Positions 18,630 to 52,085 of a DNA stretch of 64,000 bases are shown piece by piece. This DNA is from Globomyces pollinis-pini. Its lineage: Eukaryota; Chytridiomycota; Chytridiomycetes; Rhizophydiales; Globomycetaceae. Numbering within the stretch: position 1 is the first letter of the stretch; each line of letters starts with the position of its first letter. The stretch spans positions 60,242 through 124,241 of the forward strand of contig MU621106.1 of NCBI GenBank assembly GCA_025399215.1, written 5' to 3'. The notes beneath the pieces are model-generated. The model made no database searches and was not told the origin of the DNA. It worked only from the letters and a program-made list of their open reading frames with translations. Made by a program: the position numbers and the translations under genes.

Positions 18630-20479
18630 ATGGGAATATCCGGTTTATTACCTGTACTAAAACCGATCCAAAGGCAGATTCATCTCAGTGCTTTATCAGG
18701 TTTAGTCGTAGGCGTAGATGCTTATGTTTGGTTACATAGAGGTGCTTTTGGTTGTGCATGTAAATATTCTAAACTTTCATTTTTAGTGGATCTATTGAAT
18801 GATATTCCTACAAAAAAGTATTCGAATCAATTCTTTAAAATTAGATACGTCAATTTTTGTATGAAGAAAGTAATGCAATTGAAAGAGTTTGGAGTTTGGC
18901 CAATTATTGTGTTTGATGGTGGTATGTCCATTGATCTTTTATTGAATGACAGATTCTTTACCAATGAAGAAGAATACAGAAAATCAAAGAAGATCGTATT
19001 TCTGTTTGTACTAATAAAATTCAAGAAATCGAAAGGAAAGGAGACAGAAAGCATTACAGTACCTTAAAGAAGGAAATCAAGCCAAAGCATTAGAATAGTA
19101 TGATTATGAGTATGTTAACTTTCAATTAGTTGTCAAACTTGTATAGATGTAACACCTGAAATGGCACATGAATGGATTAAAGTACCGTCTTTACGATTTA
19201 ATGAAATAGGAACTTCAAAAACATAACATTGAATATATTGTAGCTCCTTATGAAGCAGATGCTCAACTAGCCTATTTAAATCGTAATGGGATCATATCAG
19301 CTGTCATCACTGAAGATTCAGATTTACTAACATTTGGTTGTACTAGAGTCATCTACAAGTAACTTGCTATCAAATCATAATGTTTAGATTGGACAAAGAC
19401 GGGAATGGAATTGAAATTAGAAAACAAGATATTGGAAATATTAGAGAATTACAGTTTTGGGATGAGACCAAATTTAGACAAATGTGTATTCTATCAGGTA
19501 TTCAATGAATTTTAATTATGATATCAGGTATGATATATATCTTAAGACACATTTAAGGTATGAGAATGAGTCATTTAATTATCTTTGGTTGCGATTACCT
19601 TGAATCTCCAAAAGGAATAGGTGTCAAGACTGCTATAAAGTTACTCAGCAATACTGATGCATATACGGTATTCTATTATGACTCAATGTATTACAGTTGA
19701 TTAAATCGTGGATGAATTTTGGAAAGTTGGTGAATGCACCAGTTCTTAAACCAGGATATTTGAAGGAATTTGAAATGGCGGATTTAACATTTAAGCATCA
19801 ATTTGTGTATGACTCTCACAAGAGCCAATTGGTCCATTTGCAACCTATTTCGGATATCATAGATATTGACATACATTTATGTTCAGGAAGGTAACTGGAC
19901 TTTTTTAATTTGAAAAGTATTATTGACCCATCTATTGCTCAGCAAATTGCACTGGGGAATTACAATCCGATTACAAAGTTACCATTTTTAAATACAGTTA
20001 ATGAAAATAAGAATATCAGACATGTAGATATTCAGAATCATAGTACAACAAAAAAGTCAAGTTCACATATACCATCATTGACAGATAAAACCAACAGAGA
20101 CTATCTGGTCCACTCCCAACAAGAGACGTGGAAAAAAAATACCACTTCGAATTATATGGTACCAATTAAGACTAGCACCAAGAAGAATCAGACAACCTGC
20201 AAGAAATTAATCAAACAAGGATTTATTAAATTATTATCGAAATCCACCAAACTCTTTTCGTCATCAAGTATTAGCCATCCAATTCGAGAGCAATTTAAAG
20301 AATCCATATCTGTTCAACAACACAGGAAAACAGATTGTATAACAACAATTGATAGTGTGGATACCATTGAAAGAGTAGTAGTAAATGATACAGTCCAATC
20401 GCAACGTGTCATATCAAATTATTTTGGGAGCAGTATTAATTCGAATAAGAAGAATCGATTTAAAATCACCAAGAAATAA
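18630..20479 (+). CDS. EXO1: Exonuclease 1 (EXO1)
   Basis: 5'-3' exonuclease of the FEN1/XPG superfamily used in mismatch repair and DNA-end resection. The N terminus [14 protein letters not shown] and [17 protein letters not shown] define the XPG-N region; [20 protein letters not shown] and [14 protein letters not shown] give XPG-I with the metal-binding acids; [19 protein letters not shown] is the helix-hairpin-helix. About nine intron positions. One of them (19498-19587) is a triple intron array just before CDYL. The C-terminal half is basic and disordered and ends [11 protein letters not shown], matching a PIP box (Qxx-I-xx-YF) for PCNA binding, then a basic tail that may be a nuclear signal. 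Confidence 0.92.
19498..19587 (+). other. Triple head-to-tail intron array in EXO1 (3 x 30 nt)
   Basis: Three abutting 30-nt units: 19498-19527 (GTATTC..ATCAG), 19528-19557 (GTATGAT..TTAAG) and 19558-19587 (GTATGAG..CTTTG). Removing all three rebuilds CILSGCDYLES, the conserved EXO1 motif. The third unit ends TTTG, not TTAG. If only the first two are removed, the third reads through in frame and adds ten residues before CDYL. Keeping the first or second gives stop codons. Confidence 0.75.
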
Positions 20480-22962: not shown

Positions 22963-25844
22963 ATGTTGAAATACAGATACAGTCAATCAATCTTCAAAGT
23001 ACCTTCGATTAGAAGCAATTTTATTCGAAAATTCCATCAGACGAATCAAAATTTATCAACAGTAAATTTTTTTGTAGTAAACCTCTTTAATCAATAGGTA
23101 AATTATTATAGTATTCTAATTATATAGGTATTCATTGCTTAGATATTCATGTTAATTTTAGAATTCTGATTCTGGTAAACCATATTCTAAAATCAATTCC
23201 ATCTTAAAATCAAAATCATCAAAAGGTTCCATACGTGATTTATTTTTGAAACCCAATGCAGATGTCAGAAACATTCCAACTGATCATTTGGAAGAGGATA
23301 AAGTGGAACCTCTAAAGAAAAAATTGGATTTATCAAAATTAGGAAATAATAGTTCAAAAAAGTATAAAAGGAAATTGAAAGATGTAACATCAGATTTAAA
23401 TCAAAATGTTTTCAAAAATGATCAGAAAGAACCTGAAGTGACTTCAAATACCGATTCAAGTGAAAATATAAAGTCAGAGGTGATTGAACCAAAAGCGATT
23501 GATTTATCTAATAATGTTGTATTTGGAGATATGATTATTCCCATTGTGGAAGTAGTTGATACAGAGGAGGAAGTTGTAGAAGTTGGAAAACACAAAAGAC
23601 ACGATTCTAGAGATTCCAAACATGGACTACAATCTCGTGACAAGGAAAAGATGTTAAGATCAAAGGAAAAGAAAGAAAGGCTAAAATCTGAAATGGAGGC
23701 CAAAAAGGGAACGTCAAAACCAAAAATACGTAAAGTCTACTTACAAGAAGGAATCTCTGTGGCTAATTTAAGTTCATTACTGGGTGTTCGATATGGTATG
23801 GATGAATTATACATATTTATTTAACAGAGCAATTATTAAGAAAACTGAAACAATCAGGCTTTGAAGAGTATCCTTCAGATTTTGTTTTGAATTCTGAAAT
23901 TGCAAGTTTGATTGTGTTAGAGTATAACATGAGTCCTGTTGTAATCCAAGAAGATACGACAGATTTGGAGAGAAGGTAACAATAGTTTATTGTAAATGCT
24001 TTAGGCCACCACCAACAGATTGGTCACAGTATCCACCTCGTCCACCAGTTATTGTAAATGCTTACCTTTATTAAAATCTAGACAATCATGGGGCATGTTG
24101 ATCATGGTTAGACTTACATAAATGTTGATATATAGGAAAAACAACTCTATTGGACTCACTGAGGAAGACTTCTGTTGCTGCTGGTGAGGCTGGTGGAATA
24201 ACTCAACACATTGGTGCATTTTCTGGTACACCAATTACTGTTTTTAACGATTTTAGTTCTATTACCATCAGGAAAGCGTATCACATTCTTGGACACACCA
24301 GGACATGCAGCTTTTTCAAGCATGAGAGAAAGAGGTGCAGAGGTGACAGACATTGTTGTTTTGGTAGTTGCTGCAGATGATGGAATCATGCCTCAAACGG
24401 TGGAAGCTATAAACCATTCTTTAAATGCAAATGTTCCAATTATTGTCGCGATTAACAAATGTGACAAACCAAATATCAAACCAGTATTTTTTATAGTCTG
24501 TCTAACCATAAGTCAAAAATCAAAGAAATGCTTGTGCAACACAATATAGTGGTCGAAGAATTTGGAGGAGACATCCCAGCTGTCCATGTATCTGGTAAAA
24601 CGGTAATGCTTTCGCAGTCCTAAGTTTTGTTAGGGAATGGGTTTATCTGAATTGGAGGAGACTATTCTGGCTATTGCAGAAGTGAATGAGTATAAAGGTG
24701 ATCCAGATGGCCCTGTGGAAGGTGTGGTTATTGAATCTCGAATGGAGAAAGGCTTTGGAAACGTTGCTTCTGTGATTGTACAACGAGGCACATTGAAACC
24801 TGGTACACTCATTACTGCTGGCCAAACTTGGTGTAGAGTGAAAAATCTTGTGGATGAACATAGGAATGAGATTCTTGAAGTGGGTCCTTCTGGAACAGTG
24901 GAAGTATCAGGGTGGAAAGGTTTACCATCAGCCGGGGATACCGTTATCGAAGCAGAATCTGAAGCTTTGGCAAAGAAGGTTATCTTTAACCGTAAAAGAC
25001 GACATTCAATTGCAGAATCTATCAAAAGCATTGATTCAATCAATGAAAAGAGGGCGGCAGCAAAACTTGAAAATGAAGCACTTGCAAAGATTAAAAATCG
25101 ACCAAGGGGCAGTAAAAAACTTCAGACCGAAGAAGAAACAGAAGATACCATTGTCAAAAAGGAGATTCCTAGTTATCGTGTTGTTTTAAAAGGTAGGTTA
25201 GTATGTTTTAACCTGTTAGCCGATGTTGATGGGTCATTAGAAGCTATAGAGGGCGCAATTGCTTCACTACCACAATATGAAGTCAAATGCGATATCATAT
25301 CTTCCGGGGTAGGATCTCCTACAGAATCCGATGTTCAATTTGCAGTTGCTGGGAAAGGTATCTGAATAATCCACTAACAAAATTAGCTGATATAATTGCT
25401 TTTAATGTACCAATCATCAACTTGATTCGTGGTAAAGCAAAGGAAAACCAAATTGAACTTTATTCACATAACATTATTTATCAATTAATTGATAAAATTA
25501 AAGAGTGTATGAGTGATCTATTGGAACCAGATTTAGTGGAATCTGTGATAGGTGAAGCTAATGTAGCCCAAATATTTGAAATCAATATGAAAAAGAAGAA
25601 GGAAAAAATTGCTGGTTGTAGAGTTATGACTGGTAAAATATTAAGATCGGAACATATTCGATTAATTCGAAATGAGCAAGTTATTTATACAGGAAAGATC
25701 AAGACATTTAAGCATCACAAGAAAGATATTTTGGAAGCACAAAAGGGTTTGGAATGTGGGATTGCTTTAGAGGAGTTTGATGATATTCAAGCTGGTGATA
25801 AACTTCAAGGATTTTCAATTACAAAGGTTAAGAGGACTCTATAA
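22963..25844 (+). CDS. MTIF2: Mitochondrial translation initiation factor IF-2
   Basis: Mitochondrial IF-2 GTPase, which places initiator tRNA on the mitoribosome. The N terminus [18 protein letters not shown] is basic and amphipathic, a good presequence. After a charged region comes the IF2-N helix set ([19 protein letters not shown]), then [16 protein letters not shown] (G1), [13 protein letters not shown] (G3), AINKCDKPN (G4), [14 protein letters not shown] (G5), domain II ([19 protein letters not shown]) and the C-terminal domains ([28 protein letters not shown]). About ten intron positions: one near the start is a triple array, and one at 25193-25219 is 27 nt long, stop-free and in frame. 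The gene ends 43 bp from the convergent uroporphyrinogen decarboxylase. Confidence 0.93.
23062..23161 (+). other. Triple head-to-tail intron array in mtIF2
   Basis: Between the exon ending LST (23061) and the exon starting [10 protein letters not shown] (23162) lie three abutting GT..AG units: 23062-23097 (36 nt), 23098-23127 (30 nt) and 23128-23161 (34 nt). Each has its own branch-like TTTAATC, TTCTAAT or GTTAAT a few bases before the AG. Removing all 100 nt restores phase 0. Confidence 0.75.
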
Positions 25845-32841: not shown

Positions 32842-33114
32842 AATGAGATAATTTTTGGATATTAGAATGTACAAAAACCAAAAGAAATAGAATAAATTGC
32901 AATATTTAAATAAGTTTTTAGAAACCAAAATACAATTATTACATGGATACCAAGACAATAACTACAACAGTTACATGGCAACTACATGATAAGTAGTACT
33001 TGGATACTACATGATAACTACTTATTTGATAGTTTCATTTCTCATGGAGATGAGCCAATGGGTTCCATTCAGCCCCCCACCTCCCTCAATTTAGTTATTT
33101 CCTTTCTTATCTTC

Positions 33115-34885
33115 ATGAGTTTCGTCGTAAAGCAAGGTTCGGCAAACGTAAAAGACGAGGGTCTAAGATCATTCCTTTGGCCAAAAAAATGGTTGATTCT
33201 TAGAGAACAAACTTTGACTTTTCATCGTGGTGAGGTATATTACTATCTCTCTCATTAAAATCAGGGTTCCGCTCAACCAATCAGTCTCATCTTCTTGAAA
33301 GAATTAGAAAAAGTAGAACGTACGGATTTAAAACCTTATTGCTTGGAATTGGTCACCAGAGATAAATCTTATAATATTGCTTTTAAAAGCGATGAGGAAT
33401 TATACTCTTGGTTGGATGAAATATACTTGGTAATCCCTTTCAATCAATTAACTTGTAGCGTTCACCGCTTGGTATATCAACTCCTACGAATTTTGCTCAT
33501 AATGTACATGTCGGTTTTGACCCAATGAGTGGTGTCTTCACCGGTTTACCAAAAGGTTGGAAAGATATTTTACAATCTTCCAAAATTACTCAGGATGATA
33601 TGGCAAAAAATCCTCAAGCTGTCTTGGATGTTTTAGAATTTTACACAGGAAATATGGTGTCAGATAATGAACAACAGTTATCCCCAAAACCTCCGAGTAG
33701 TAGCGCTAGTACTAGAGTTAATGAATTAAAAGGTCCTGCATCAACTCCTACCCTAAGGACCCAAAAAGTTTGATTTTAATGTACTGATTATCAGATTGAA
33801 CACAGCCCTAGACGTGAAAGTTTGAGACCTAATCAAAATTCAGAACCGACTTATCGACCTCCTCCACCACCCGCCATCAAAGAATTACCAAAGGTTCCTG
33901 CTATAAAAGAACAACCAAAAAAGAAAAAGGAACCAAGGTTGTCCACACTGACAGAAAGTCAAATTATGGAGAAGCTTCGTAAATTACCCTTCCAATATTT
34001 ACTATTTAGGCGCCGTGGTATCTCCAGGTGATCCTCATACCTTTTATACCAAAACTAAAAAAATTGGCCAAGGTGCTTCTGGGTCAGTTTATCTAGCCAA
34101 AGATATCAAAACAAGCGAAGTTGTAGCTATCAAACAAATGGATTTAAATGCACAACCTCGAAAGGAATTACTAGTGAACGAAATTATGGTAATGAAACAC
34201 AGTCAACATCCAAACGTTGTGAATTATAAAGACTCGTTTTTGGTCAAGAATGATTTATGGGTAGTCATGGAGTTGATGGAGGGAGGACCATTGACAGATT
34301 TAATTGAAAACAACACCTTAAATGAATCACAAATTGCCACAATTTGTCAAGAGGTAATAATAGGATAGTTTTAATCGATAGTCTGTGGCTGGATTGCACC
34401 ATCTTCACGAACGTAATATTATACATCGGGATATCAAATCAGATAATGTGTTATTGAATGGTAGAGGACATGTGAAAATCACTGATTTCGGATTTTGTGC
34501 TAAACTATCTGCTGACCGTTCAAAGAGAGCAACCATGGTAGGTACACCATATTGGATGGCTCCCGAAGTAGTAAAGCAAAAAGAGTATGGGGCCAAAGTA
34601 GATGTATGGTCATTGGGAATTATGGCAATTGAAATGATTGAAGGTGAACCACCATACCTTGACGAAGAACCTCTAAAAGCATTATATCTGATTGCAACCA
34701 ACGGTACTCCTAAATTAAAGAACCCTGAGACAGTGTCGGCTCCATTAAAAGACTTCCTAGATCGGTGTTTGCAGGTGGATGTGGGTAAAAGAGCGACAAT
34801 GGAAGAATTACTGGCCCATCCATTTTTAAAACTTGCAGGCCCAACCTCATCTTTACAACCTTTACTCAAAAAGAAGAGAAAGTAA
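33115..34885 (+). CDS. PAK kinase 2 of 4 (PH-CRIB-kinase)
   Basis: Second Cla4-type paralogue. PH domain from [20 protein letters not shown] to [14 protein letters not shown]; canonical [24 protein letters not shown] then FTGLP; a Pro-rich linker with [20 protein letters not shown] (possible SH3 ligand); kinase with [36 protein letters not shown] and [16 protein letters not shown]. Of the four copies, its CRIB is closest to consensus. Intron positions match the first copy (after the PH N-half, after the PH domain, before the kinase, and inside the kinase after TICQEV). The 273 nt upstream contain two copies of ACTACATGATAA near 32980-33020 and no gene. Confidence 0.93.
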
Positions 34886-35170
34886 ATGTAATAAAATATT
34901 ATAATACACTTGATAAAGTAAATTAATAGTTTTTGTTTTTGGCAAGGAGAATGTACAAATAATATGGCCATTGGTATACAGTACTTCCTTACGGACACGA
35001 AGACAAATGTGAACACAAGACTCATAATAAACCAAACAATAATTGATTGAACAAAAATACCAATAAGAATGACCAAGTCGAGATAATTATCCCGACTCTT
35101 GAATCCGTGCACTTGTTTCAACGAATCAGGACATGGCGTATCACAAGCAACTTCCCTCAATACACATCAA

Positions 35171-37452
35171 ATGAATATTGTTCAGCGTGGTCAAGTAACA
35201 GTCAGAGAAGACGGAATTCGGTCCTTTCTATGGCTTAAACGACATGCTATTCTTCGAGAAGTTTCATTATCATTCCATAAAAATGATACTACTCCTCAAC
35301 ATACTTCACTCATCCTATTAGAAGATATTGTCAAGGTTGAAAGAGTTGATTTAAAGCCATTCGCTATTGAAATTGAAACTGACGATAAAACTTACTATAT
35401 CTCCTTTAAATCCGATGAAGAATTGTATAATTGGATGGATGAGATTTATTTGGTATAACTTGATTAATTCATTTGTAGAGGTCTCCCCTAGGATTTTCAA
35501 ACCCAACTAATTTTAAACATAATGTACATGTAGGTGTGAATCAAACCAATGGTTCATTTTCTGGATTACCTTTGGAATGGCAGAAAATGTTACAATCTTC
35601 CAAAATCACTCAAGAGGAAATGGAGGAAAATCCAGAGGTTGTATTGGATGTATTGGAATTCTATAATGAAAATTTGAAATCGGAAGAACATACTTACAGT
35701 ACTTCATCATCCTCTCTTAGTCCAAGTCCTATCAGCACTCGGTTTTCTAAACCAATCAATTTCAATAATCGTGGTCATTCTTATATTGAACCTGTTGCAT
35801 TGACTGAACGACCTTCGAGACCACCTGAACGGAAAAGGTCTGTAAAAAGAGAACAAAGACATGTTGTAGAGACGAATGAACAGGATAATAGTCAAAATAG
35901 CGACCGGCTTTTGATTCCTAGGACCAATCGGTCTCGGTCACGAAATCGAAGTGCTGACCGGAGAAGAGTACGTAGCCCTGAACGTCCTGAACGAATCAAG
36001 AGCCCAGAAAGAGCTCCAAGTGTATTTGATATGAATGTAAAATATTTGGGATTCTCATTTTTTTTTAGAATATGGATTCTGCCTTACCAACATATACTTC
36101 CAGACGACGAGAACGGGTTTCTGTAGATAATGCTCGTTCGAGACGAGAAAGAGTTTCTGTTGACGGAGTTCGGCCTAGAAGAGAAAGAATCTCTGCTGAA
36201 GAGTCATCACATAGACACGAGCGTAGTTCAACAGAGAATGTCACTGTTCGACAAAGAGTATCTGATGAACCTCCAAGAAGAGAGCGGATTTCTGTTGACG
36301 GAAATCGCACTACTCGTACCTATCATTCCCCAAATGACTATGCACCTCGTTCGGCTCCAGTTGATACTCGGGGACCAAGAAGACCAGTGGATTATTCACA
36401 TCGACCTCCACCACTCGAAGCTCCACAAATACCCGCTATAAAAGAATTACCAGTAACGCGGGTTGATCCTCCGCCCCGCTTGAAGAAGAAAGTGCCAAAG
36501 AAAGATCCACTATCGGATACCCAAGTGTTAAACCAACTTAGTAATTCTAATTGATACACTAATCCTAGATGAAATTGTGTCGGCAGGAGATCCGTCAACC
36601 ATATTCACGAAACTTAAACGAGTAGGCCAAGGTGCATCAGGATCTGTCTACATTGGCAGGAACAATACCACCAAAGAACGGGTAGCAATGAAACAAATGG
36701 ATCTCACCAAACAACCAAAATTGTCTCTCCTGGTCAATGAAATCGCCATCATGCGTGATTGCGTTCATTTTAATCTCGTATCGTATATAGACTCTTACCT
36801 TGTCAAAAACGATTTATGGATTATAATGGAGTTGATGGAAGGTGGTACATTAACACAAATAATCGATAATAATTCGATAACTGAAGCACAAATGGCAACT
36901 ATATTACGCGAGGTATATTCAAAAATCATATTTATATTATAGTCATTGTTGGGATTACAATTCCTACATTCACATCATGTCATTCATCGTGACATCAAAT
37001 CCGATAACATTCTATTTAATAGTCGTGGAAATGTGAAATTAGCAGATTTTGGTTATGCAGCTAAATTGACTGCTGATTTAACCAAACGTATGACTATGGC
37101 TGGTACAGCGTACTGGATAGCTCCGGAAATGGTAAAACAAAAAGCATATGGCCCTAAAATCGATGTATGGTCACTTGGAATCGTCACCATTGAAATGATT
37201 GATGGTGAACCTCCATATTTAGAAGAAGATCAACTAAAAGCCTTGTATTTGATTGCTACCAAAGGTACACCTGAATTGAAGAATCCAGGTAAGATATCAG
37301 CGCAACTGAAAAGTTTCCTGGGAGAGTGTCTGGTGGTTGATGTTGGATTACGGTCAAGTGTGGATGAATTGTTGTTGCATCCGTTTTTAGAAATTGCGGA
37401 TCCATTCTCATCTTTGGCTGGATTATTGAAAAGGAGTACACCATTACGATAA
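35171..37452 (+). CDS. PAK kinase 3 of 4, with Arg-rich repeat linker
   Basis: Third paralogue. PH domain from [41 protein letters not shown], where the usual GFD is GVN; then a long linker with short repeats of RRER(V/I)S(V/A)(D/E), for example [20 protein letters not shown], absent from the other copies. Kinase: [45 protein letters not shown] and [16 protein letters not shown]. The P+1 loop GTAYWIAPE departs from GTPYWMAPE, which may change substrate choice; catalytic residues are intact. The repeats look like tandem basophilic phosphorylation sites. It ends 67 bp from the convergent DGAT2 gene. Confidence 0.93.
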
Positions 37453-37519
37453 TAAACATAATTAAAACTATTGGATCCTTTCACAGCAAAATCATTTCAA
37501 GTTAAAGTTTAGTTTTTTA

Positions 37520-38534
37520 TTATAAAAATTCCATTTCTTTAGTTCGATAAGTAAAATAAGTATCTTTATACTTTTCATATAAATCACGCAAAGCAATGAG
37601 ATACAAACCATGTAATCGATCAATCTCTTCCTGAGATGGATCCGCGTTCTGAATAGTCTCAATAGGTGCACCCACAATCGTGACTAATTCATGTTGTAAA
37701 GGAAAAATAGTCTTCCAACGTCCAATAAAGGAAGGAGCAGCCATTTTAAAGATTTTGAAATAAGCTTTAATATATCCTGGGGCATCATATTGCGTATACA
37801 ATTCATTTTCCCCAAAGTTAAGAATTGGTACTAATGAAGCACTAAATGAATTAGTAAATGGATGAACAATTTTACCCAGTACGAATTGCAATTTTCACAA
37901 ATCCTTTACGATCAGCTAAAACTAAATCCATTGTTCCTTTTTTCATGAATGTGAATTCACGCGCACCACCAACGACAATTCCCAATGCAACTCCTTTCAC
38001 TACACATTTACTGATGGCTTTGGCAGAAGATGAAATGGCACCCACTCCAAAAGAAAATTCTCTCCACATTGGAATAACGAAATTGATTGGTAAAGTACAT
38101 GTAGTAGTTTTGATACCAGGAAATAGTCGATAAAAGTTTGGATTGTAAAGTACATTTGAAAGATAAGATAGACAATACACACCATGTGGATGTACACCGA
38201 AAATATATGGTTTTGATGGATCCAATTCACTTGTTTTGATTAATTTAGCGGAAAAGTAAGATCGTACGAAAGGCATGTATAAATTACCAATCAAGATCTT
38301 CAATCCTTTTATTTCACGATCGGATTCACCAGATGAATCGATAAATACCCAACCAAGATATAGCAAAGTAATCAATCGTGTTGTCCAGTTGAGGTAGAGA
38401 CAGAACAGGACTAGAATTGGGCCAACAAACATTGTTGCGAATGGTGCAAAAAAACTTATCACTCCTATTATTTCTAAAATAGAATTCTTTTTCGGAGCAG
38501 TATAAATCATCTCTTTGAACTCTTTTTCAGCCAT
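37520..38534 (-). CDS. DGAT2-type acyltransferase, copy A
   Basis: Diacylglycerol acyltransferase 2 family enzyme (acyl-CoA to diacylglycerol or a related acceptor), ER or lipid-droplet membrane. Two exons with one 34-nt intron that joins KIAIRTG to ASLVPILNFGENELY. An N-terminal hydrophobic hairpin (residues 22-65) precedes SYFSAKLIKTSELDPSKPYI and FGVHPHGV with the catalytic-site HPHG. GIKTTTCTLPINFVIPMWRE and GVALGIVVGGAREF are family blocks; RKGFVKIAIRTG is the RxGFVxxA motif. About 326 residues. It sits on the opposite strand to the PAK array and is a tandem sister of the next gene. Confidence 0.92.
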
Positions 38535-38681
38535 TACGATTAAAGAGAAATTTGGTAGAAAAAAGATTAAAATTGCGTTTGTTTCGGGCGGTGAATTTTG
38601 AAATTGTTGGGACGGCCGATAAAATGAAATAACAACTTAGTGATTCTTTCAGAACAATTTATTAAAAAAGGTTCGGGTTTT

Positions 38682-39706
38682 TTATACAAATTCCATGTCT
38701 TTGATACGATACGTGAAATACTGATCTTTATATGCGTCATAAAGATCACGTAAACCTTGTAGATATTGTTGATGAATATCATCAATCATTTCTTGAGTTG
38801 GCTCTGCAGTTTTGATCGTATGTACCGGTGATCCAATAACTGTTACTAATTCATGTTGAAATGGCATTATTGTACCAAATCTACCAGAAAATGATGGTGC
38901 CGATGCTCTGAATATTCGGAATATCTTTTTCATGAATTCAGAAGATTCTCCACGAATGTAGATTTCATTTTCTCCAAAGTTGATAACCGGAACCAAAGAA
39001 GCTCTATCATTTAGTTTTTACAAGTTTGATACCCTGATTTTATAGCTACTTTGATAAATCCTTTACGATCCCGTAATACTAAATCCAAGGTTCCCTTTTC
39101 CATATAGTTGTATTCTTTCGCTCCCCCTACGACTATACTCAAGGCAACACCCGGTCTGATACAGTTTAGAATTGATTCAACGTTTGATGAGATGAAGCCG
39201 ATAGCTTGAATCATTTCCTTCCAGATTGGAATATAAAAATTGGCAGGAAGAGTGCAAGTGGTAGTCTTTAAACCTTTGTATAGGTCATAAAAATGTGGAT
39301 TCTCCAGCACATTAATATGATAAGAAAGACAGATGACGCCATGTGGGTGGACAGCAAACAGATAAGATTTTGAAGGATCTAAATCAACAGTTTTGACCAG
39401 TTTAGATGAAAAGTAAGATCTGACATATGGCATTAAGGTCCTTCCAAAAAAGTTCTTTACTCCCTTTATCTCTCTGTCATGGAAACCCTTTTTATCCAAA
39501 ATAAGTGAAACGATGTAGATGCAGGCCAAAGTTCTAGTAATCCAATGGTAATAAAAAAAATAACCAAACAAGACTGGACCAAGGAAAACCTGTAAAATAG
39601 GAGAGAATAGTAAGAGGCCGATAACGGAGAAGAATTCCAAGATGTGATTTCTCTTGGAAGCTGTATACACGACTTCTTTCTTTGACTTGATTTCCGATTT
39701 CGTCAT
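38682..39706 (-). CDS. DGAT2-type acyltransferase, copy B
   Basis: Sister of the gene at 37520-38534, same strand, 147 bp apart, with the single intron at the same place (KVAIKSG|ASLVPVINFGENEIY). It has the N-terminal membrane hairpin, FAVHPHGVICLSYHINVL with HPHG, GLKTTTCTLPANFYIPIWKE, GVALSIVVGGAKEY and RKGFIKVAIKSG. Both copies keep every motif I know for the family, so both are probably active; monoacylglycerol or wax acceptors remain possible. Divergence between copies is moderate (very roughly 50-55% by eye). Confidence 0.92.
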
Positions 39707-40196
39707 TGAAACAAAAAGAAAAATGAGTCGGCGAGCGGAATTGAACGTAGTGACCTTGAAAATAAAGGGGAATAAATAGAAACCGATGATTTATATTAAA
39801 AGTCTATTAGTTATTACTCCGAGTAATTTACTCGTTCTAACAACAACTTTTCAAAGGTAAATAGGAATCTAATGGTGTGCAGAAAGAGAATGAAAGCAGT
39901 AACGAATGGATATGCCAAAGAGAAATAGAACAGGGCACTTTGACAGCTCCTTTATAAGTCAGGCTTTAAGTTGGTCCCTGACCAGTTTACAAACAACGGT
40001 AAGTTTAAACTCATCTTAGTGTAAAATACCGTGTAATCAAACCAAACCATAATACATTTTGTATTAGTATCAATCAATTTCTATCCAATTCACCTTCGTT
40101 TATCGTTTAAATCCTTTCCTGTTCATTCTCAATCATGAGGTTCATCACCAGCCACTTTTCTTGTGTTTATGTTTACAAAAATCTTTGACTTTCAGT

Positions 40197-42040
40197 ATGA
40201 ACAGTCTGAGTATGGTAGTCAGGCAAGGACACGTATACGTTAAAGACGATGGATTCACTCCATTCTTCTGGCCCAAAAAGTACTTGGTGTTGAATGAAAC
40301 TTGTTTAAAGTTCCTTAAAAATGACGTATTCAACTTTCACCTTTTTATTGTTCTTTAGGTCATTCATCAACCATATTTGGTATTATTGCTCAAGCACCTT
40401 GATAAAGTGGAAAGAGTAGATTTAAAACCATATTGCTTGGAATTACGTTATGGGGATCGGTCTTACTTTATCTCATTTAAATCAGATGAAGAATTATACT
40501 CATGGCTGGACGAGATTTATTCAGTATTTGTGAATGAAATTAATCTTTAGCGATCTCCTTTGGGAATTTCAAAGCCAACTGATTTTAAGCATAATGTTCA
40601 TGCTACTTTTGATCACACCACTGGTCAATTCACTGGATTACCCCAGGAGTGGATGGATTTACTGCTAGATTCAAATATTTCAAAGTTTGAACAAAGTCAA
40701 CATCCTGAAATCGTGTTGGAAGTTTTGGAATTTTATGCAGAGAATAATCAAACTCTCAATAAGTACGATAAAGTCACTAGAAGCAACTTGAATGAGAAAC
40801 CTATCGATATCCCGAATACAAGTTCAGCTACGATAGAAGTACAGCTAAGAAGAACTGGAAATGTTCAAAAACCACACCCTCTAAGTAAATCTTACACCGA
40901 AAGACGCCCCTCGACAGATCTTCCAGAAAATCTAGCTCGTTTGAAATTAAATCGTTATGTATGTAATTTTAGCTCATTGTATAGTCCTTTCAGAAAAACA
41001 ATGCAAAACACGCTTCATATATATCCGTCAATCCATTAAGCCAAAAACCACCTTTAAAGACGCCAAACGTTTGTGATGCACTTTCACCCAATTCTTATTA
41101 TCAGAATCGAAAAGAAGCCAATGAGCAAGCAACAAAAATAGACAAAATATTTCTTGAGCGATTGGCGGATCTGGTTTCTGACAAAGTCCCTACATTATAT
41201 TACACAAAGATAAAAAAGGTGGGTCAGGGAGCGTCTGGGTCAGTTTATATTGGTCGAAATAATGAAACAAACCAAATTGTTGCCATTAAACAAATGGACG
41301 TTGCTTCACAGCCCAAAAAAGAATTATTACTGAACGAGCTAACAGTTCTGAAACATAGCAACCATTTAAATATCGTTGGATTTGTAGATGCATTTTACTA
41401 TTTAGAAGATTTGTGGGTGATAATGGAGTATATGGAAGGTGGATCTTTAACTGATATTGTTTCCAAATCAAGACTCTCCGATATACAGATTGCAACAATA
41501 AGCACCCATGTAAGTTTATTACTATTTAACCGTTAGGCACTTAATGGATTGTACTTTTTACACCAACGAAATATTATTCATAGAGATATAAAGTCGGATA
41601 ATTTAGTATTGAATGGTCAAGGAATTGTAAAATTGATAGATTTTGGATATAGCACCAAATTAACTCCTTCTTCGAAAAGGATTGCTTTGGCTGGTAGTCC
41701 CTACTGGATGGCACCAGAGGTCATAAAGCAAAAAGATTATGATTGTAAAATTGATGTTTGGTCTTATGGCATAACAATTATTGAAATGATTGAAGGGGAG
41801 CCACCTTATTTGGACGAAGAGCATTTGAAGGCATTATATTTGATAGCCACTAACGGAACACCGAAACTGCAAAAACCACAGAAATCTTCTACCGCCTTAA
41901 AAGACTTCATGTATAAGTGTTTAGTTGTCGATCCAGTAGAACGAGCTAGTGCGCAACAATTGTTAAAAGAACCTTTCCTTGGTCTGACAGACTTTGGATC
42001 CACTCTCAGCTTGCTAAAGAAAACACAGTTAGGTAGATGA
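40197..42040 (+). CDS. PAK kinase 4 of 4, with altered CRIB
   Basis: Fourth paralogue, separated from the others by the DGAT2 pair. PH domain from MNSLSMVVRQGHVYVKDDGF to [37 protein letters not shown], where the HVGFD core is HATFD; a short linker; kinase with [50 protein letters not shown] and [14 protein letters not shown]. Loss of the Val-Gly pair in CRIB should weaken Cdc42/Rac binding (inference). The kinase keeps its catalytic residues. The intron inside the kinase is at the same place as in the other three copies. Confidence 0.92.
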
Positions 42041-42184: not shown

Positions 42185-43809
42185 TCAGTCACTCTCTAAT
42201 ACCTTTTCCATTTCGGACAATAAATGAACAAAAGACCTTCTTGTACGTTCATCGACTGCCATATCTGTTAACACTGGAGAGATGATCAAGTCAATCAATT
42301 TTGCTCCGTTCTATCAATTATAAATTGTCCTTTGTGCGTTACCTGTACTCTTGTTTGATGTTTTGATGATCGAATAGTGCCAAAATCCCATCCTTCAGTC
42401 AGAATTGACAATTCCGATAAGTCATGGGATTCACTATTTAATTAGTATTACGGTTGTATATACTCAAAAAAGCTGGATTCATTCGCATCTGACTGTTGAC
42501 TTGTCCATTGAACATGACGATGAATCAAATCCTTTAAAATATTTGTTTGCTTGGCACTCTTAACAAACGGATGTTTCAATAATTCTTTTGCAGTTGGTCG
42601 CTAAAAATAAGCATTTCAAGAGTCTTACGTTAATTGGATCTTTCGTACAACATAATTCAACAAAGTTTTTGAATGGTTTGGTAAAATTGCCTTCCAGTAG
42701 TGGAGGTTCATTTTTCATAATCAAATTTAATGCTCTCATAGGATGCATGTCTGAATAAGGTGCTGATCCCTTTGCAAGTTCAATTGCAGTTATTCCTAGA
42801 GACCAAATATCAGCCTTATATTAAAGGTAATCAATTTACTTTTGTATCATAGCCTCCTTGTTGAATGATCTAGAATAAAAGGTGGCTTCAGATGTTACCT
42901 CTTTTAGTCAGTCAGAACTACTTAATCAATATACCTGGCGCCTATCTATTATAAATATTAAATTTACCATCCAATAGGGAGTTCCTACAAAAGAATGCTT
43001 TTTACTACAATCAGAAGTTTCACCACTTACTCTAACGTTGCAGAAATTTGACCAGATACACCAAAATCGGCTAGTTTTAGACTGCCATCTGCACAGACTA
43101 GTAAACTAACGTGTAAGAGGATTAAAGTGATACTTTGCAGCTTTTATATCGCGATGTAATTTCCCCTATAACAATTAGAAACTAATGGCATACATCATCA
43201 TGTATGTGATCTAGTCCTTTCAAAAGGTCTCTAATAATTACAGCCACATACACTTCTTCAAATGGTTTCGCTCTAAGCTATTACAGTAAGATCGAGTAGT
43301 AGTCTAGTTTACCAATTCAAAACATGAACCACCTTCACAGAATTCCATCACAATCCATAATTTTGATTTTTTAATAAAAGATCCATAATATTTTGTGATG
43401 TAAGGTGAATATAATTGAGACATGATGTGAATCTCTTTTTGGATATCGTCAATTTCATCTTCACTTTCTAATCGATTTAAAAATGCGTATGATTTACTTT
43501 CCATATCAATTATTTTAATTGCAACAGGTTCGTTTGTTTCTACATTATAACCTTTGAATACCTAGGTTTAACACCTATAGAATTCTACTTCTCCAAAAGA
43601 TCCTTTGCCAATTCGTTCTGTTCTGCATTAATTCATTCAATTCACCTTTATATTATCAAACTTCATTTTACCTTGTAGTTTAATTTTTGTAAGATGTACC
43701 TTAATTAGTGATCAATTTCTAATTAGATTAAATACCTACAATTCAATATGACGATTAGTATACCTGCTTTCTTATACAACAATTCTGGATCGGTTCGCTG
43801 TTTTGTCAT
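42185..43809 (-). CDS. GCK-III STE20 kinase (MST3/MST4/Sps1-like)
   Basis: Germinal-centre kinase III, the class that works with MOB/striatin or Cdc25-like scaffolds in septation, polarity and stress. Spliced text: [64 protein letters not shown], then [35 protein letters not shown] with [42 protein letters not shown]. The C-terminal helix ends [15 protein letters not shown]. At least a dozen introns, among them a five-unit head-to-tail array after YKKA and an exon chain of 7 and 2 nt inside the APE motif. A 30-nt in-frame intron between IIDME and SEDE reads through silently. Confidence 0.9.
42870..42967 (-). other. Intron cluster leaving exons of 7 and 2 nt in the APE motif
   Basis: On the minus strand: intron 42967-42942 (26 nt), exon 42941-42935 (GCGCCAG), intron 42934-42901 (34 nt), exon 42900-42899 (AG), intron 42898-42870 (29 nt). 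Joining gives GTPYWM + GCG CCA G + AG + ATC ATT, i.e. M-A-P-E-I-I. The APE triplet is near-invariant in protein kinases, and no other canonical GT..AG combination I found gives Glu and keeps the frame. Confidence 0.7.
43618..43763 (-). other. Five-unit head-to-tail intron array
   Basis: Five abutting units read 5'-3' on the minus strand: 43763-43736 (28 nt), 43735-43700 (36), 43699-43672 (28), 43671-43646 (26) and 43645-43618 (28). Each begins GTA or GTG and ends AG, and every junction is AG|GT. Flanking exons join KKA with [11 protein letters not shown] only when all 146 nt are removed. Branch-like CTAAT or AACTA motifs are clearest in units 1-3. Confidence 0.75.
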
Positions 43810-46305: not shown

Positions 46306-49115
46306 CTAATTGTACATGTCGCCTCCTAGTATTCTCATATCTTCATTCAACCCCAGTCCAACTTCCGCCAACATATCAATCACGGTAGAATTCATCGCAG
46401 GTGGACCACACACAATAAACTTTGAGCTTTGATATTGAGAATAGATTCCATTCAAGATATTAATCGAAAGGTTCTCTTTAGATGTGTGAACCAGTGTGCA
46501 TAATTGTGGATATGCAATTTGTGCACCATCAATAATTTGTTTTCCAATCATTTGCGATGGATTGTCGGTTACTTGAATGATGTGTACTTTCATCGGTATT
46601 GAAGGTAGTGTGCAGCCTAACGGGAATGAACCTTGTTCATTTGTTGTCAAATTGTTACCAAAGCACCATCCATCCATATCTAAAAAATTAAATTAAATAT
46701 TAAGCCATACAATGATATTGAACTCTGACGATATCTCCTGGAGTCAAGTTCATTTCATCTGATAACTCAGCCCTGTAACTTTGAATAACCTATAATTTAA
46801 GATGTGCGAATACATACGCGAAGAGTAATGCCTGTGGAAAGAAACAAATATGTCAGTAGTTGCAGGCACGGGGTTATCCCACTGCCACCTGCAAAGTAGT
46901 AAATTGCTTCAGGCAGTGCTGATTGATATTGAAGTCTGGTATTGAAATCACAAAAAGGAGTTCCAAACGGACCTCTCACTTTGAATTGCCTATCACCAGG
47001 CTTTTGATTAATAAAAAATTGTGACATCTTGCCCTTTGGTTTGATTTTAACGAGAATTTCAAATGACCCCATTGAACCAAGAATTGGAGTATAGTACCGG
47101 GTGATACGTTCACTTCCTATCAATCCCTGGATTTCAACACATTGGCCTGGAAGAAAAATGTTTGGTTGCCCTAATCTTTCATTATATGGGTACAAGAGAC
47201 AAAATCGAAGGCGGACAGTTAAGGAATCAGATACTTGAGAGATTCTGGTCAGTGCGTATCTTCGAAACTCAAATATGTTGAAATTCAATGAATCGGTTTC
47301 CGTTCTTGAGCTAGACACCATTGAGGAAGAATCTTGGGAAATGTCAACAAGTTTTCCGACCAGCATGCTTGAGAGTCTTTCAATCGCCATTCGAGTATGC
47401 ACATGCAGCCGCCTCGATCGTTGAATGTACATCCAATCGTCTTGAGAATAAGAAGTCATATCTTTCGACCCTTCACTTAATCGAAGTGAGTTTAACGAAT
47501 CGAGTGACTTTCGCTTTAAAGCCCGCATATCACTAGCCGACAGTTCATTTGTAGGCGCTTCGTTTTTCGTTAATGAACCGTTGCGCTTTAGTGGAATGTC
47601 CGGCCGAGGAACAAAGTGTTCAGCATCAAAACCAGCATTATTAAAATAATCTTCCGATATATCAGTACCAGTGACTGAGAGTAGAATAATACGGCCCCCA
47701 GGATGAGAAGATATCCACTGAGATATGTCATAAACATATCGACCGTTTGCAACAACTAGCAATTTTCTAATCATTAATAAAACTGCTTATACCCATTGTT
47801 TACAGCGTGATCTAGAGATTCCCATGTAAAAACAGAGGAAGATGATGATTGGATTTCCTTTGCACCAAGTAAAACCTTGTCCTGTTTCTTTTGTAAATCA
47901 GCTTTCATTGGATTCGCTTTTGTGAAAGTCTGTGCAAACTTTTGATAAACTATACCATTCTGTCTGCGAACAAAGACTGTATGATAGACTTCAAATCCAC
48001 TAAACAAAATCAACCAAAATGACACTAATCCGATATAAATAACCCACATATAGATTTCTCTGGGATCTTCCCATGGATAGAGCACATTGATCCCTAGAGC
48101 CATTTGCAACATCGAAGTCATTAGCAATAGATATCCTGATATTTGGTGGAACATTCTAATCGTCGTACGAACTTTTTCAATATCTTCAAGAGAGAGACCC
48201 AGAAAAGACAAAAATCCAAGTATGGACTGAATTAACACTAACGCTAGTAATGTGATTCCAATAACAACATGAGGGTTGGAGAGATTTGGATCAGAATTGA
48301 AAAACATCAAGGATGCAAATACCAAAATCAATAATACTCCAGTACCCTGTATTATCAGCTTGACTAATAGCCATCCTTTCTTTGAGCGAAAATATCTTGC
48401 ATAAAACGCACCAAATGGAAGTAACACTAACCAAATGAACATCATACCAAGACCATGGATTTGCTTTACTTGAAAGTTTCCAACTTCTTTGGGTATTGCA
48501 AATCCTCTTTCAAGCATCATGTTAACTGATCCCCTATTCAATGGCGAGTGATGAACGAAATTCTTTTGCTTAGAATTGATAGGATTGAAGGCCCACAAGA
48601 AGCTTACAGGTGTCTTTGTAGGCAGTTGATAGTGATAATTATCACTTGGAGATAACGGTCTGGTAAATTGACAAGACTGCATGCTTGTAGAACCAATTCC
48701 AATTATTCCGTTTACTACTTCTGGTCCACCATAGTAGTGTTTCTAGATGATGAGTTTTTTGATATATGAGAATTACTGGTGCGGAGTATTTATTTGAAGA
48801 TTCATGCTCATGCATTGTTATCGAGGTATTCATTACATTATGGCATACAATGAATTGGCCAGTCAACATTGAAGTGCCAAACCCAATTGAGGCCCAAGAA
48901 TAATCTAAATCCTTGGCACTGTCTGACAATTTTTTAAGTTCCAGTATTCCAAATAAGTCAGTACTATCCACTTTCCAGTAAAATGTCAGTTGATAATCAA
49001 GGTCATTTGAGAGGATGGCGGAAAAGGGAAAGAGCGAATTGTTTGGTGTAGCTTCAGAAAGCAAGTCTTTGCAGTAAACTAGCAGCGATAAATACAAAAC
49101 TAGTAACGTTCTCAT
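46306..49115 (-). CDS. DOMON-cyt b561-cyt b5-flavin/NAD oxidoreductase with embedded SH3, copy 1
   Basis: Multidomain transmembrane electron carrier, about 900 residues. N-terminal signal peptide (MRTLLVLYLSLLVYCKD); DOMON heme or sugar domain (SWASIGFGTSMLTGQFIVCH); cytochrome b561 helices with candidate heme His in VKQIHGLG, NPHVVIG and MFHQISG; cytochrome b5-like domain with ISSHPGGRIILLSVTGTD; FAD-binding barrel with RYYTPILG; NAD-binding start YYFAGGSGITPCLQL. Then an SH3-like domain (VIQSYRAELSDEMNLTPGDI, later DGWCFGNN..GSFP) interrupts the NAD module, whose second half resumes MKVHIIQVTD and FIVCGPPAMN. It should move electrons from NAD(P)H through flavin, b5 and b561 to an outside acceptor. 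Head-to-head with its paralogue. Confidence 0.88.
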
Positions 49116-49295
49116 TACTGTTCAATTATAATTCCAAGTGCATTTTTGAAACCATGAGGCTTAATGACCAAACAAAGCCTTTGCAAAGGGATCGGTTTTG
49201 GACGCTTATGGAGCATGGTGGGACAAGGTTTGTTGGAGTTAACATGTGCTATGCTGTTTGTTTATATCGCGTTGTTTTCTTCAACAGTTTAATCT
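49116..49295. promoter_or_regulatory. Shared bidirectional promoter of the oxidoreductase pair
   Basis: Only 180 bp separate the two divergent ATGs (49115 minus, 49296 plus), so both genes must share this promoter. No coding region of its own; no clear TATA box was seen. Confidence 0.6.
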
Positions 49296-52085
49296 ATGAA
49301 ATTAGTGCTTTTATGGCTCTCATTGTATCTAGTTCAATCGATGAATGTGGATGGATTCGTACCATCCCGATCATCATTTGTTCCTACTTTCAAGTTCACC
49401 ACTACCTTGTTTCAATCAGCAAATGATTATAAGTTTGAATTTTCATGGGCACTATCAAAAGATGATTTTTACGGAATGATGGAGTTATCTCAACCAGTAA
49501 ACAATACACTAATATTGAAAGATGCGTGGGTGGCAATTGGATTCGGTACAGGGATGTTTAACTCTGAAATAATTACATGCCATGGTTTAACAAATGGGTC
49601 TGTATCTATGTTTGAACGAAGAAGTGACAATAGATATATGCCACCAGTAAATGATCTTAACTGAATTAATATTATAGTCTATCTTCTATTCGAAAAACAC
49701 GAGCATTTCTATGCCAATTTCAGGCAGTATGAAAGATGGTAAACAAACTTGTATTTTCCAAAGAAAATTGAGCCCCCAAGATCCTGATTATGTCAAGTTA
49801 TCTGCTGTTGGCCTAATGAATTTGATTTGGGCTTTTAATCCTACCAGTTCCCTTAACTACAAACAAGAAAGATTCACATTTCACGCACCAACTCATCGAG
49901 GTTCTTTTGTTGCTGTTACATCAGGGAAAACGATACCAAACACAAAGACAGATTTCCCAATAAAACAGACGCACGGTATACTGATGATGTGTGCATGGTT
50001 GATTGTCCTCCCTTCTGGTGCCTTTTATGCAAGATACTTCCGTACCACAATCAACTGGTTTATAGTTAAGTTAATCGTCCAAACTCTCGGATTGGTTTTA
50101 GCAGTTATATCAACAGTATGTATTTTAACTACACAATGGAGGATTGATGGGCTTCATGGCATCATGGGTGTGACAGTGCTATCTCTACTGTTAGTTCAAA
50201 TTCTATTTGGTGGTGTTTCAGTGATAGCATTTTCGTACACCCCATTCAACTCTTTTAGAGGATTTTCAAAGAAATGTCACACATTCATTGGGATCACATT
50301 ATTTACCTTATCTTTTGTCCAAATTGGTATACTATGTTTAATAGACTAAACTTAGGTATTGGCTTACATAAAATATATCCTTGGGAAGAAAAAAGAGACG
50401 GTTCAATGTTTTGGGGTTTCTACTTTGGGGCAATTATCTTTTGGATTGTAGCAACGTTCATGGCTGAACTTCTTTGGGGAAATTCGTTGCATAAGAAAGA
50501 AAGAGAAACATTATTTGATGAGGAGCAAGCAATCAAGTCAGTTACAAATGATGGGATGAAAAATTACACATGGGAGTCATTGCATCAGGCTGTAATGGAT
50601 GGGTAATATTCTTTATAGTTTATTTTTAGAAAATTATTGGTAGTGACTAAAGGAAGATGGGTTTACGATTTATCGACTTGGTATCAGTCACATCCTGGTG
50701 GAAGAAGGATACTACAAATGGTTTCCGGCACTGATGTTACATTTGAGCTGGTCAACCAGTACAGTGATACGTTAATCCACTTAAAGATCGAGCCTCCCCA
50801 AAAAACCTATCAATCTGACACAAAATTACTGAAGAAAATATCACTAAGTGACATACGAAATGAACCAATTGATGACCCACTTGATTTTGACTCCAGTCCG
50901 ATATCTCTATTAACTGAAAACGATCTGGCAATTCTCAAACAATCCAGAGTCAAACATGCACATTCTAGATTTGCAATTCAAAAACTTTCTCAATTCTTGG
51001 TCGGAGAAATTCCAGCGGAAAATAATACTTTTAGACCATCAGTCAACTCAAGTAATACTATAAATAATGAAAATTTACCGTTCGAAAATTATGAATTCAG
51101 AAGATATGTTATAACCAAAAAAGAAATTCAATCAACATCTAGCTTTCAGAAGCAAATCATTCTATTTAAATTTTGTATGGTCTACCCTTCTATCAAACAG
51201 AACCAACCGGTAAATTTCATACCTGGACAATCAGTGCAAATACAAGTCTGTAAAGACGGAAAGTATATATCCCGATACTACACCCCAATTAAAGGTGATT
51301 TGATATCGTTTGAGATTCTCGTGAAGATAGAACCAGATGGAATCATGTCACAATATCTTTTACAACAGAATTGTGGTGCCAATCAAGTAAAAATCGTATT
51401 TTTACTAATAATATATAGATCAAGATACGTGGACCATTTGGAAGTAGCATCCTACCAAAGAGTTTCCATGATAAGGCAATTCCATTTCAATTTCCAGAAA
51501 GAATCTATTTTTTTGCTGGTGGTTCGGGTATAACACTGTTCATTCAATTGACGAATTATATTCTATATAATACAAAGCTACCTCGTCGAGTAATTCGTTT
51601 TTTAATACTAACTGTTACAGGTCATTCAAAAATTTCAACCCATTGGTGACAGTAACGAGATTGAATTACTAGTGGGTGATCGTGTTATTATCTACCAACA
51701 TCAAGGCGATGGTTTTTGCTATGGAAAAAACATCAATTCTCAGGCAGTTGGATTGTTTCCTACATCTTGCGTACTACCAATGATACCAACCAAACTGATT
51801 TTGTTTGTTATATCAGAACGCGAGAATGAAATAATGGGGAGGGCAATTCTGAATGAAGTATTATACTCCTTTCCAAATCTACTTGAAATACGCTATTTAG
51901 ATTATCAGAGCCTTGAATCGAACGAAATATTGAATGTTTTAGAAAATGCATTGTCAAGTCAAAAAGTGCTGGTATGTGGTCCGAGTAAGATGAACACTAA
52001 AGTGGTTGATGTCCTTAAACGTATGAATGGACCATGGGGAGAACATATAAGTTATCGAGTTGGTGGTAGGAATGAAAAGTATTGA
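49296..52085 (+). CDS. DOMON-cyt b561-cyt b5-flavin/NAD oxidoreductase with embedded SH3, copy 2
   Basis: Paralogue of the divergent gene at 46306-49115 with the same order: signal peptide MKLVLLWLSLYLVQSMNV; DOMON (DAWVAIGFGTGMFNSEIITC); b561 helices (IKQTHGILMMCAWLIVLPSG, LHGIMGVTVL, KKCHTFIGITLF); b5-like QSHPGGRRILQMVSGTDV; FAD barrel SRYYTPIKG; NAD start FFAGGSGITLFIQ, lacking the usual Pro after GIT; SH3 (VIQKFQPIGDSNEIELLVGD, FCYGKNINSQAVGLFPTSCV); then KLILFVISER and VLVCGPSKMN. At least six introns of about 27-33 nt. The SH3 placement is identical in both copies, so it predates the duplication. Confidence 0.88.

Follow-up and report, generated by a model that had tools for sequence, protein, structure and literature searches.

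Minimal introns of about 15-30 nt are a feature of ciliates, nucleomorphs and similar systems, and we know of no report of such introns being stacked directly upon one another. For recursive splicing in Drosophila and vertebrates, zero-nucleotide exons are described in which an AG/GT junction regenerates a donor and no nucleotide of the site remains in the mRNA (PMC8605326; PMC5126111). Ratchet points known so far subdivide long introns, and according to PMC8605326 a cryptic RS-exon is required for intronic recursive splicing. The human UBC gene carries a series of AGGT words, each of which can be used as a 5' or 3' splice site and which delimit tandem repeats (PMC10809524). Fungal stwintrons, as described for Lipomyces, comprise several U2-type introns at one position, which are removed consecutively (PMC7138796). 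Finally, intron gain by duplication is documented for Cryptococcus CNN00420 (PMC2395259) and potato RdRp (PMC4974935), where introns were copied or AGGT-bounded introns were made.

The DNA analysed here (64,000 nt, referred to as the window; C17:60242-124241) belongs to the chytrid fungus Globomyces pollinis-pini, a member of Rhizophydiales (Chytridiomycota), whose genome measures 18.5 Mb in 459 contigs. It contains a GCK-III kinase gene in which the 146 nt between two exons, read from 43763 to 43618 on the minus strand, consist of five GT..AG units of 28, 36, 28, 26 and 28 nt that tile the interval exactly. The features concerned are the following (basis in brackets).

42185..43809, minus strand: GCK-III (STK24/25/26-like) kinase gene, as modelled (Pkinase 1-263 of 263, E 2.5e-67)
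43764..43809, minus strand: first coding exon (ATG frame and deposited protein P0001)
43736..43763, minus strand: array unit 1, 28 nt, GTATAC...TTGTAG, branch motif TTGAAT (sequence)
43700..43735, minus strand: array unit 2, 36 nt, branch motif CTAATT (sequence)
43672..43699, minus strand: array unit 3, 28 nt, branch motif TTAAAC (sequence)
43646..43671, minus strand: array unit 4, 26 nt, branch motif TTGATA (sequence)
43618..43645, minus strand: array unit 5, 28 nt, branch motif TTAATG, weak donor GTGAAT, weak acceptor ACAG (sequence)
43589..43617, minus strand: next exon, (E)RIGKGSFGE, glycine loop (homology and deposited protein)

The first-pass annotation of this locus had described five such units, and checking the sequence proved both their lengths and their coordinates right. 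It had also proposed zero-length exons; indeed, AG stands directly before the next GT at each of the four junctions inside the array, which gives eight internal sites. Extra GT and AG dinucleotides are also present within the units. The array sits exactly between AAGAAAGCAG and AACGAATTGG, and joining both gives the sequence of the deposited protein P0001. That protein reads YKKA-ERIGKG uninterrupted and without any translation of the array, in agreement with the earlier claim that YKKA is joined to the glycine loop by removing the 146 nt, and neither of the two relatives compared, P0044 (Kappamyces) and P0006 (Entophlyctis), has an insertion at this position. A single intron of 146 nt fits the protein equally well. 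The tiling itself is not readily obtained by chance: none of 20,000 shuffles of the 146 nt, with dinucleotides preserved and ends fixed, could be fully divided into GT..AG units of 23-37 nt. If whole units are retained, all 31 non-empty sets lead to a stop at or before codon 51.

As modelled, the kinase gene contains 17 intron units, five of them in the array, and its product is 97% identical to P0001, the deposited G. pollinis-pini protein. The two models differ at the 3' end (C-terminus), and an in-frame intron of 30 nt (43468-43497), whose removal gives DMEKSEDEIDD, is present in the deposited model and was missed by ours. Two further exons of this gene are very short.

42935..42941, minus strand: 7-nt exon GCGCCAG of the kinase gene (gene model)
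42899..42900, minus strand: 2-nt exon AG between introns of 34 nt and 29 nt (deposited protein WMAPEIIQ)

The 2-nt exon is required for the Glu codon of the conserved APE motif. The introns beside the 2-nt and 7-nt exons are 26-34 nt long, and the gene model of the 264-kb sample introduced below contains, among 534 internal exons, 11 of 1-12 nt and 17 of zero length. If the deposited protein is right, the kinase introns that lie 2 nt apart are removed separately, and a distance of 0 nt would be a small further step.

Elsewhere in the window, four neighbouring genes at 30940-42040 (plus strand), which judging by their translations we take to resemble PH-CRIB (Cla4/PAK-like) kinases, are probably tandem duplicates. 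Two adjacent diacylglycerol acyltransferase-like genes at 37520-39790 (minus strand), with the DAGAT domain at 39014-39790, were fused by our own model. Furthermore, two divergent, similar genes are located at 46306-52085, the minus-strand one with Cyt-b5 and FAD_binding_6 domains.

The ordinary introns of this genome were modelled in a sample of 264 kb, consisting of the window, itself selected for its array, and twenty 10-kb stretches fixed by position beforehand. The self-trained gene model yielded 113 genes with 617 introns, 567 of which are 23-37 nt long, with a peak at 28-29 nt; under a flat length prior, 388 of 470 introns fell between 24 and 35 nt, 10 between 39 and 53 nt, and 26 had at least 90 nt. 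In the trained model the donors are GTA (89%) or GTT (10%), and 76% of the acceptors are TAG. A motif search revealed a YTNAY-like branch motif that starts mostly 10-14 nt before the intron end; this motif lies outside the gene model, and the acceptor lies inside it. U2 snRNA was found by Rfam search (controls silent) and contains GTAGTA, presumably in its usual sequence context, and U1 snRNA gave no Rfam match, with the controls silent too.

Longer intervening sequences are present as well. Full tiling into units was absent from 41 of the 48 that measure at least 46 nt (window included), and some of these resemble real long introns, so that one-step removal of introns longer than 50 nt seems possible in this genome. 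In a comparison of branch sites, CTAAC occurs in 12% of 42 untiled long introns vs 5% of 401 introns. Two introns of about 75 nt, at 841-915 of locus L010 and 1462-1535 of locus L018 (both minus strand), lack AG/GT tiling and have ACTAAC close to their 3' ends; the genome may possess a second, longer intron class.

In length and end dinucleotides, the units of the kinase array match the minimal introns of the species, and the strength of their branch motifs varies (2.88, 5.07, 3.14, 4.09 and 4.70 bits for units 1-5). Ranked against single introns, donor, acceptor and branch motif stand at the 36th, 83rd and 20th percentiles in unit 1, the 87th, 35th and 86th in unit 2, the 26th, 8th and 23rd in unit 3, and the 67th, 35th and 44th in unit 4. 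Unit 5 is the weakest one, with donor and acceptor both at the 2nd percentile and the branch motif at the 70th.

Spacing of AGGT words suggests that such stacks are common. With AGGT itself at different distances serving as the expectation, 934 AGGT triples (451+483) were counted genome-wide at 26-38 nt and 250 (126+124) at 42-54 nt, and the genome has 1172 AGGTA pairs at 23-33 nt vs 356 at 39-49 nt. The excess of AGGT pairs within the 264 kb is modest (61 at 24-32 nt vs 44 at 34-42 nt and 44 at 44-52 nt). The reversed word forms 2204 triples (1035+1169) at 26-38 nt vs 2185 at 42-54 nt and thus has no spacing preference; its count was rejected as an expectation for AGGT, being that of a different, commoner word that exceeds the AGGT count itself. 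Single introns with AG before and GT after them contribute to the AGGT counts (12 of 524), and none of the 524 has the full AGGTA..AGGTA form. One place counted in this genome, G000:C2:114782-114855 (minus strand), contains exact 23-nt tandem repeats with AGGTA and is at first sight not intron-like.

Tiling and gene modelling point in the same direction. The twenty stretches (window excluded) contain 38 intervening sequences of at least 46 nt, 4 of which can be fully tiled (mean of 300 shuffle rounds 0.17, maximum 3); with the window included, these figures are 7 of 48 (shuffle mean 0.29, maximum 3). When tandem introns were allowed with a probability of 0.05, 10 of 618 intron sites in the 264 kb were multi-unit sites (7 of 479 without the window), and in seven of the ten all units are 20-40 nt long. 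Three of these seven arrays are located in the window, namely the kinase array and the following two, and four in the other twenty stretches (200 kb).

19498..19557, plus strand: second window array, units of 30+30 nt (gene model with tandem introns)
23062..23161, plus strand: third window array, units of 36+30+34 nt, upstream of the IF2 domains of its gene (gene models)

Four arrays per 200 kb scale, as a rough figure, to a few hundred genome-wide. The number of arrays in the 264 kb depends on the tandem probability (1 at a very low setting, 8 at 0.01, 10 at 0.05) and was 6 under the flat length prior; the five-unit reading of the kinase gene was chosen at 0.05 and 0.01, and neither at the very low setting nor under the flat prior. 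In addition, 18 loci (L022-L039) were hand-picked for many units from the first 100 places with AGGT triples, and 17 of them contained at least one modelled multi-unit site (L036 had none), the longest arrays having ten units (L022, L023), eight (L024) and six (L035). For the signal comparisons below, 27 of 32 modelled multi-unit sites were kept, all with units of 20-40 nt; the five sites dropped for longer units come from L006, L013 and L016 (one each) and L030 (two). The kinase array is therefore one member of a genome-wide class in G. pollinis-pini. The five-unit array and its zero-length exons stand as the first-pass annotation interpreted them, and the array is no singular oddity, since stacks built alike are present at many genomic sites.

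Arrays interrupt conserved genes. Spliced products of ten array genes, hand-chosen from 22 (window and picked loci), were searched against Pfam, and all ten matched a family, e.g. Ras (1-161 of 162), CoaE (2-178 of 180), Snf7, PhyH, MCM and protein kinase; the Vps24 query was limited to the last 201 residues of its model. Two ten-unit arrays show how deposited models can go wrong at such sites.

L023, 886-1170, plus strand: ten-unit array in the PhyH gene, wrong deposited model P0241 (sequence comparison)
L022, 780-1068, minus strand: ten-unit array in the Vps24 gene, wrong deposited model P0121 (sequence comparison)

At the Vps24 array, the relative P0122 (Boothiomyces) reads RILAKEVVASKKA straight through, and the fully spliced product RILAKEVVNSKKA is likewise uninterrupted; the deposited G. 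pollinis-pini model P0121 starts inside the array. In the PhyH gene, whose array lies on contig C12, P0241 has 19 extra residues, absent from P0243 and P0248, that correspond to translated units 4 and 8. Our own model of this gene keeps a 9-residue stretch lacking in P0241. Of the three deposited models examined at arrays, one is right (the kinase) and two are wrong; gene callers that do not admit zero-length exons may miscall array genes.

We consider it probable that the kinase array consists of five minimal introns with zero-length exons between them, which are cut out separately and in no fixed order, and that such stacks grow by local tandem duplication. Every unit is equipped with a putative donor of its own, a branch-like motif and an AG close by. 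Most likely the spliceosome recognises introns as such (intron definition) and strongly prefers lengths of about 28 nt; every GT would then be matched to the branch site and AG of its own unit, the nearest partner being the default, and the units would be removed separately and without a fixed order. Removal of any unit or of any run of whole units would again leave a valid AG/GT boundary; as every internal boundary is AG/GT, all complete removal routes give one and the same mRNA. In the kinase gene, incomplete removal that leaves whole units in place creates a premature stop. We infer individual removal, the lack of order and duplication as the usual origin from the arrangement and signals of the units. 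The wider proposal, that the genome holds hundreds of concatenated introns in stacks of 2-10, whose AG/GT junctions act as both acceptor and donor, whose units are excised alone and whose number grows and shrinks in a satellite-like manner as an undescribed mode of intron multiplication, appears to us slightly better supported than its opposite.

As for the origin, stacks probably form, and become longer, when a whole intron is duplicated in tandem at its own site. Once two units adjoin, slippage by one unit would give a third, harmless if all are spliced, and the units would then be maintained one by one through selection for correct splicing. In the PhyH array, units 2 and 3 (28 nt) are identical and several others are alike. 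A genome-wide search with this unit, the only one searched, returned just the two adjacent copies within 3 mismatches; identical neighbours without copies elsewhere point, for this unit, to local tandem duplication. Alternatively, the units could be introners or reverse-spliced introns that entered AG/GT sites, an explanation of origin and not of splicing. It would agree with the low resemblance of neighbours, 63 of 68 adjacent pairs being no more alike than the 99.5th percentile of pairs from different arrays. However, the only near-identical copy of the unit searched adjoins it, and 11 of 125 non-adjacent pairs from the same array exceed the same threshold, so that we regard insertion as doubtful and retain tandem duplication as the probable usual origin.

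The main alternative for splicing is that the 146 nt form a single intron, removed in one jump from the first donor to the last branch site and AG, with the inner AG/GT junctions being relics or chance. The absence of the whole stretch from the deposited protein is compatible with this, and untiled long introns appear to exist in this genome (the 41 of 48 mentioned above). Should only the outer sites be in use, however, the inner signals ought to decay, and the strength of the inner acceptors and branch motifs speaks against this. In the 59 inner units of the 27 modelled arrays, the acceptor reaches 2.31 bits and the branch motif 3.88 bits; the corresponding values are 2.12 and 3.75 in the 49 inner units of 19 AGGT chains collected independently of the gene model (17 of the 19 chains come from the picked loci), vs 2.14 and 3.99 bits in single introns (n=524). 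The controls are much lower, with an acceptor score of -2.12 bits in 160 AGGT pairs 40-70 nt apart and a branch score of 1.93 bits after shuffling. YTNAY is in place in 71% of the inner units of chains and 78% of those in modelled arrays, vs 77% of single introns and 33-34% of shuffled sequences. Nor are the outer acceptors and branch motifs of modelled arrays stronger than the inner ones: first, inner and last positions score 2.36, 2.31 and 1.52 bits for the acceptor and 4.18, 3.88 and 3.74 bits for the branch motif.

Since the 63 neighbouring pairs are not specially alike, the shared inner signals are not merely those of recent copies; five of the 68 pairs do lie above the threshold, and because the mean likeness of adjacent units slightly exceeds that of units from different arrays (0.219 vs 0.158, sd 0.107), inheritance may account for some of the shared signal. 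The donors argue in the other direction, inner ones being weaker (1.12 bits in modelled arrays, 0.50 in chains) than those of single introns (2.12 bits). Part of this difference can be ascribed to the upstream AG, which goes together with weaker donors in single introns too (1.51 bits after AG, 2.42 otherwise). Weaker array donors, the weak unit 5 and the untiled long introns are thus points against unit-by-unit removal, as is the dependence of the array count on model settings, including the failure of the flat length prior to pick the five-unit reading. Considering also that no shuffled sequence could be tiled, the sequence evidence favours stepwise removal, and a single jump is unlikely.

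A variant of dual-specific use, in which any GT is joined stochastically to any downstream AG and jumps over several units are as common as removal of single ones, would make use of the fact that all junctions are AG/GT and that any combination of whole units leaves a correct boundary. Dual use of AGGT is reported for human cells by Duan et al. 2024 (PMC10809524). The narrow range of unit lengths and the branch-like motifs favour the nearest partner instead, which makes such unordered long jumps quite improbable compared with removal unit by unit. Chance or an assembly artefact, i.e. incidental AGGT words in AT-rich sequence or collapsed repeats, is scarcely credible, for although AGGT words chain in coding repeats too and the control spacing gives 250 places, the genome-wide excess is specific to the spacing, the arrays lie in conserved genes whose product requires full removal, and the unit sequences are mostly unlike each other.

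If the units are cut singly, the spliceosome can assemble on introns that share their boundaries with introns on both sides and have no exon between them. This would bear on the minimal flanking sequence and spacing that splicing needs and on whether the order of removal matters, and also on the multiplication of introns, as an extra copy is cheap if every copy is removed. Each array would moreover be a ready-made reporter of splicing order.

The stacks share with recursive splicing the AG directly before GT, at four junctions in the kinase array, by which a donor is regenerated. In contrast to known ratchet points, the kinase array is not located in a long intron but measures 146 nt in total, with steps of 26-36 nt; across G. 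pollinis-pini, a fungus whose introns are minimal, the steps are 24-36 nt and number as many as ten at one site. The UBC series delimits coding monomers that are kept in variable number, whereas the units described here are introns that must all go; they have branch-like motifs of their own, and their sequence would permit dual use of AGGT. In a stwintron, one intron sits inside another and interrupts its donor, branch site or acceptor, whereas the present units are complete and adjacent and thus of a different kind. In CNN00420 and RdRp, the introns are part of a larger coding repeat, or the duplicated segment extends across an intron-exon boundary, whereas here whole introns abut. The near-identical dispersed copies typical of introners were absent for the one unit searched, which belongs to the PhyH array outside the window. 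The first-pass annotation's statement that no five-unit array of minimal introns had been described agrees with the open-licence PMC literature, in which no arrays of minimal introns without exons occur among the matches listed, although this does not prove their absence. Recursive splicing, dual-specific AGGT sites, stwintrons and introns born by duplication are all described already; beside them, the stacked minimal introns of G. pollinis-pini would represent a new form of zero-length-exon splicing.
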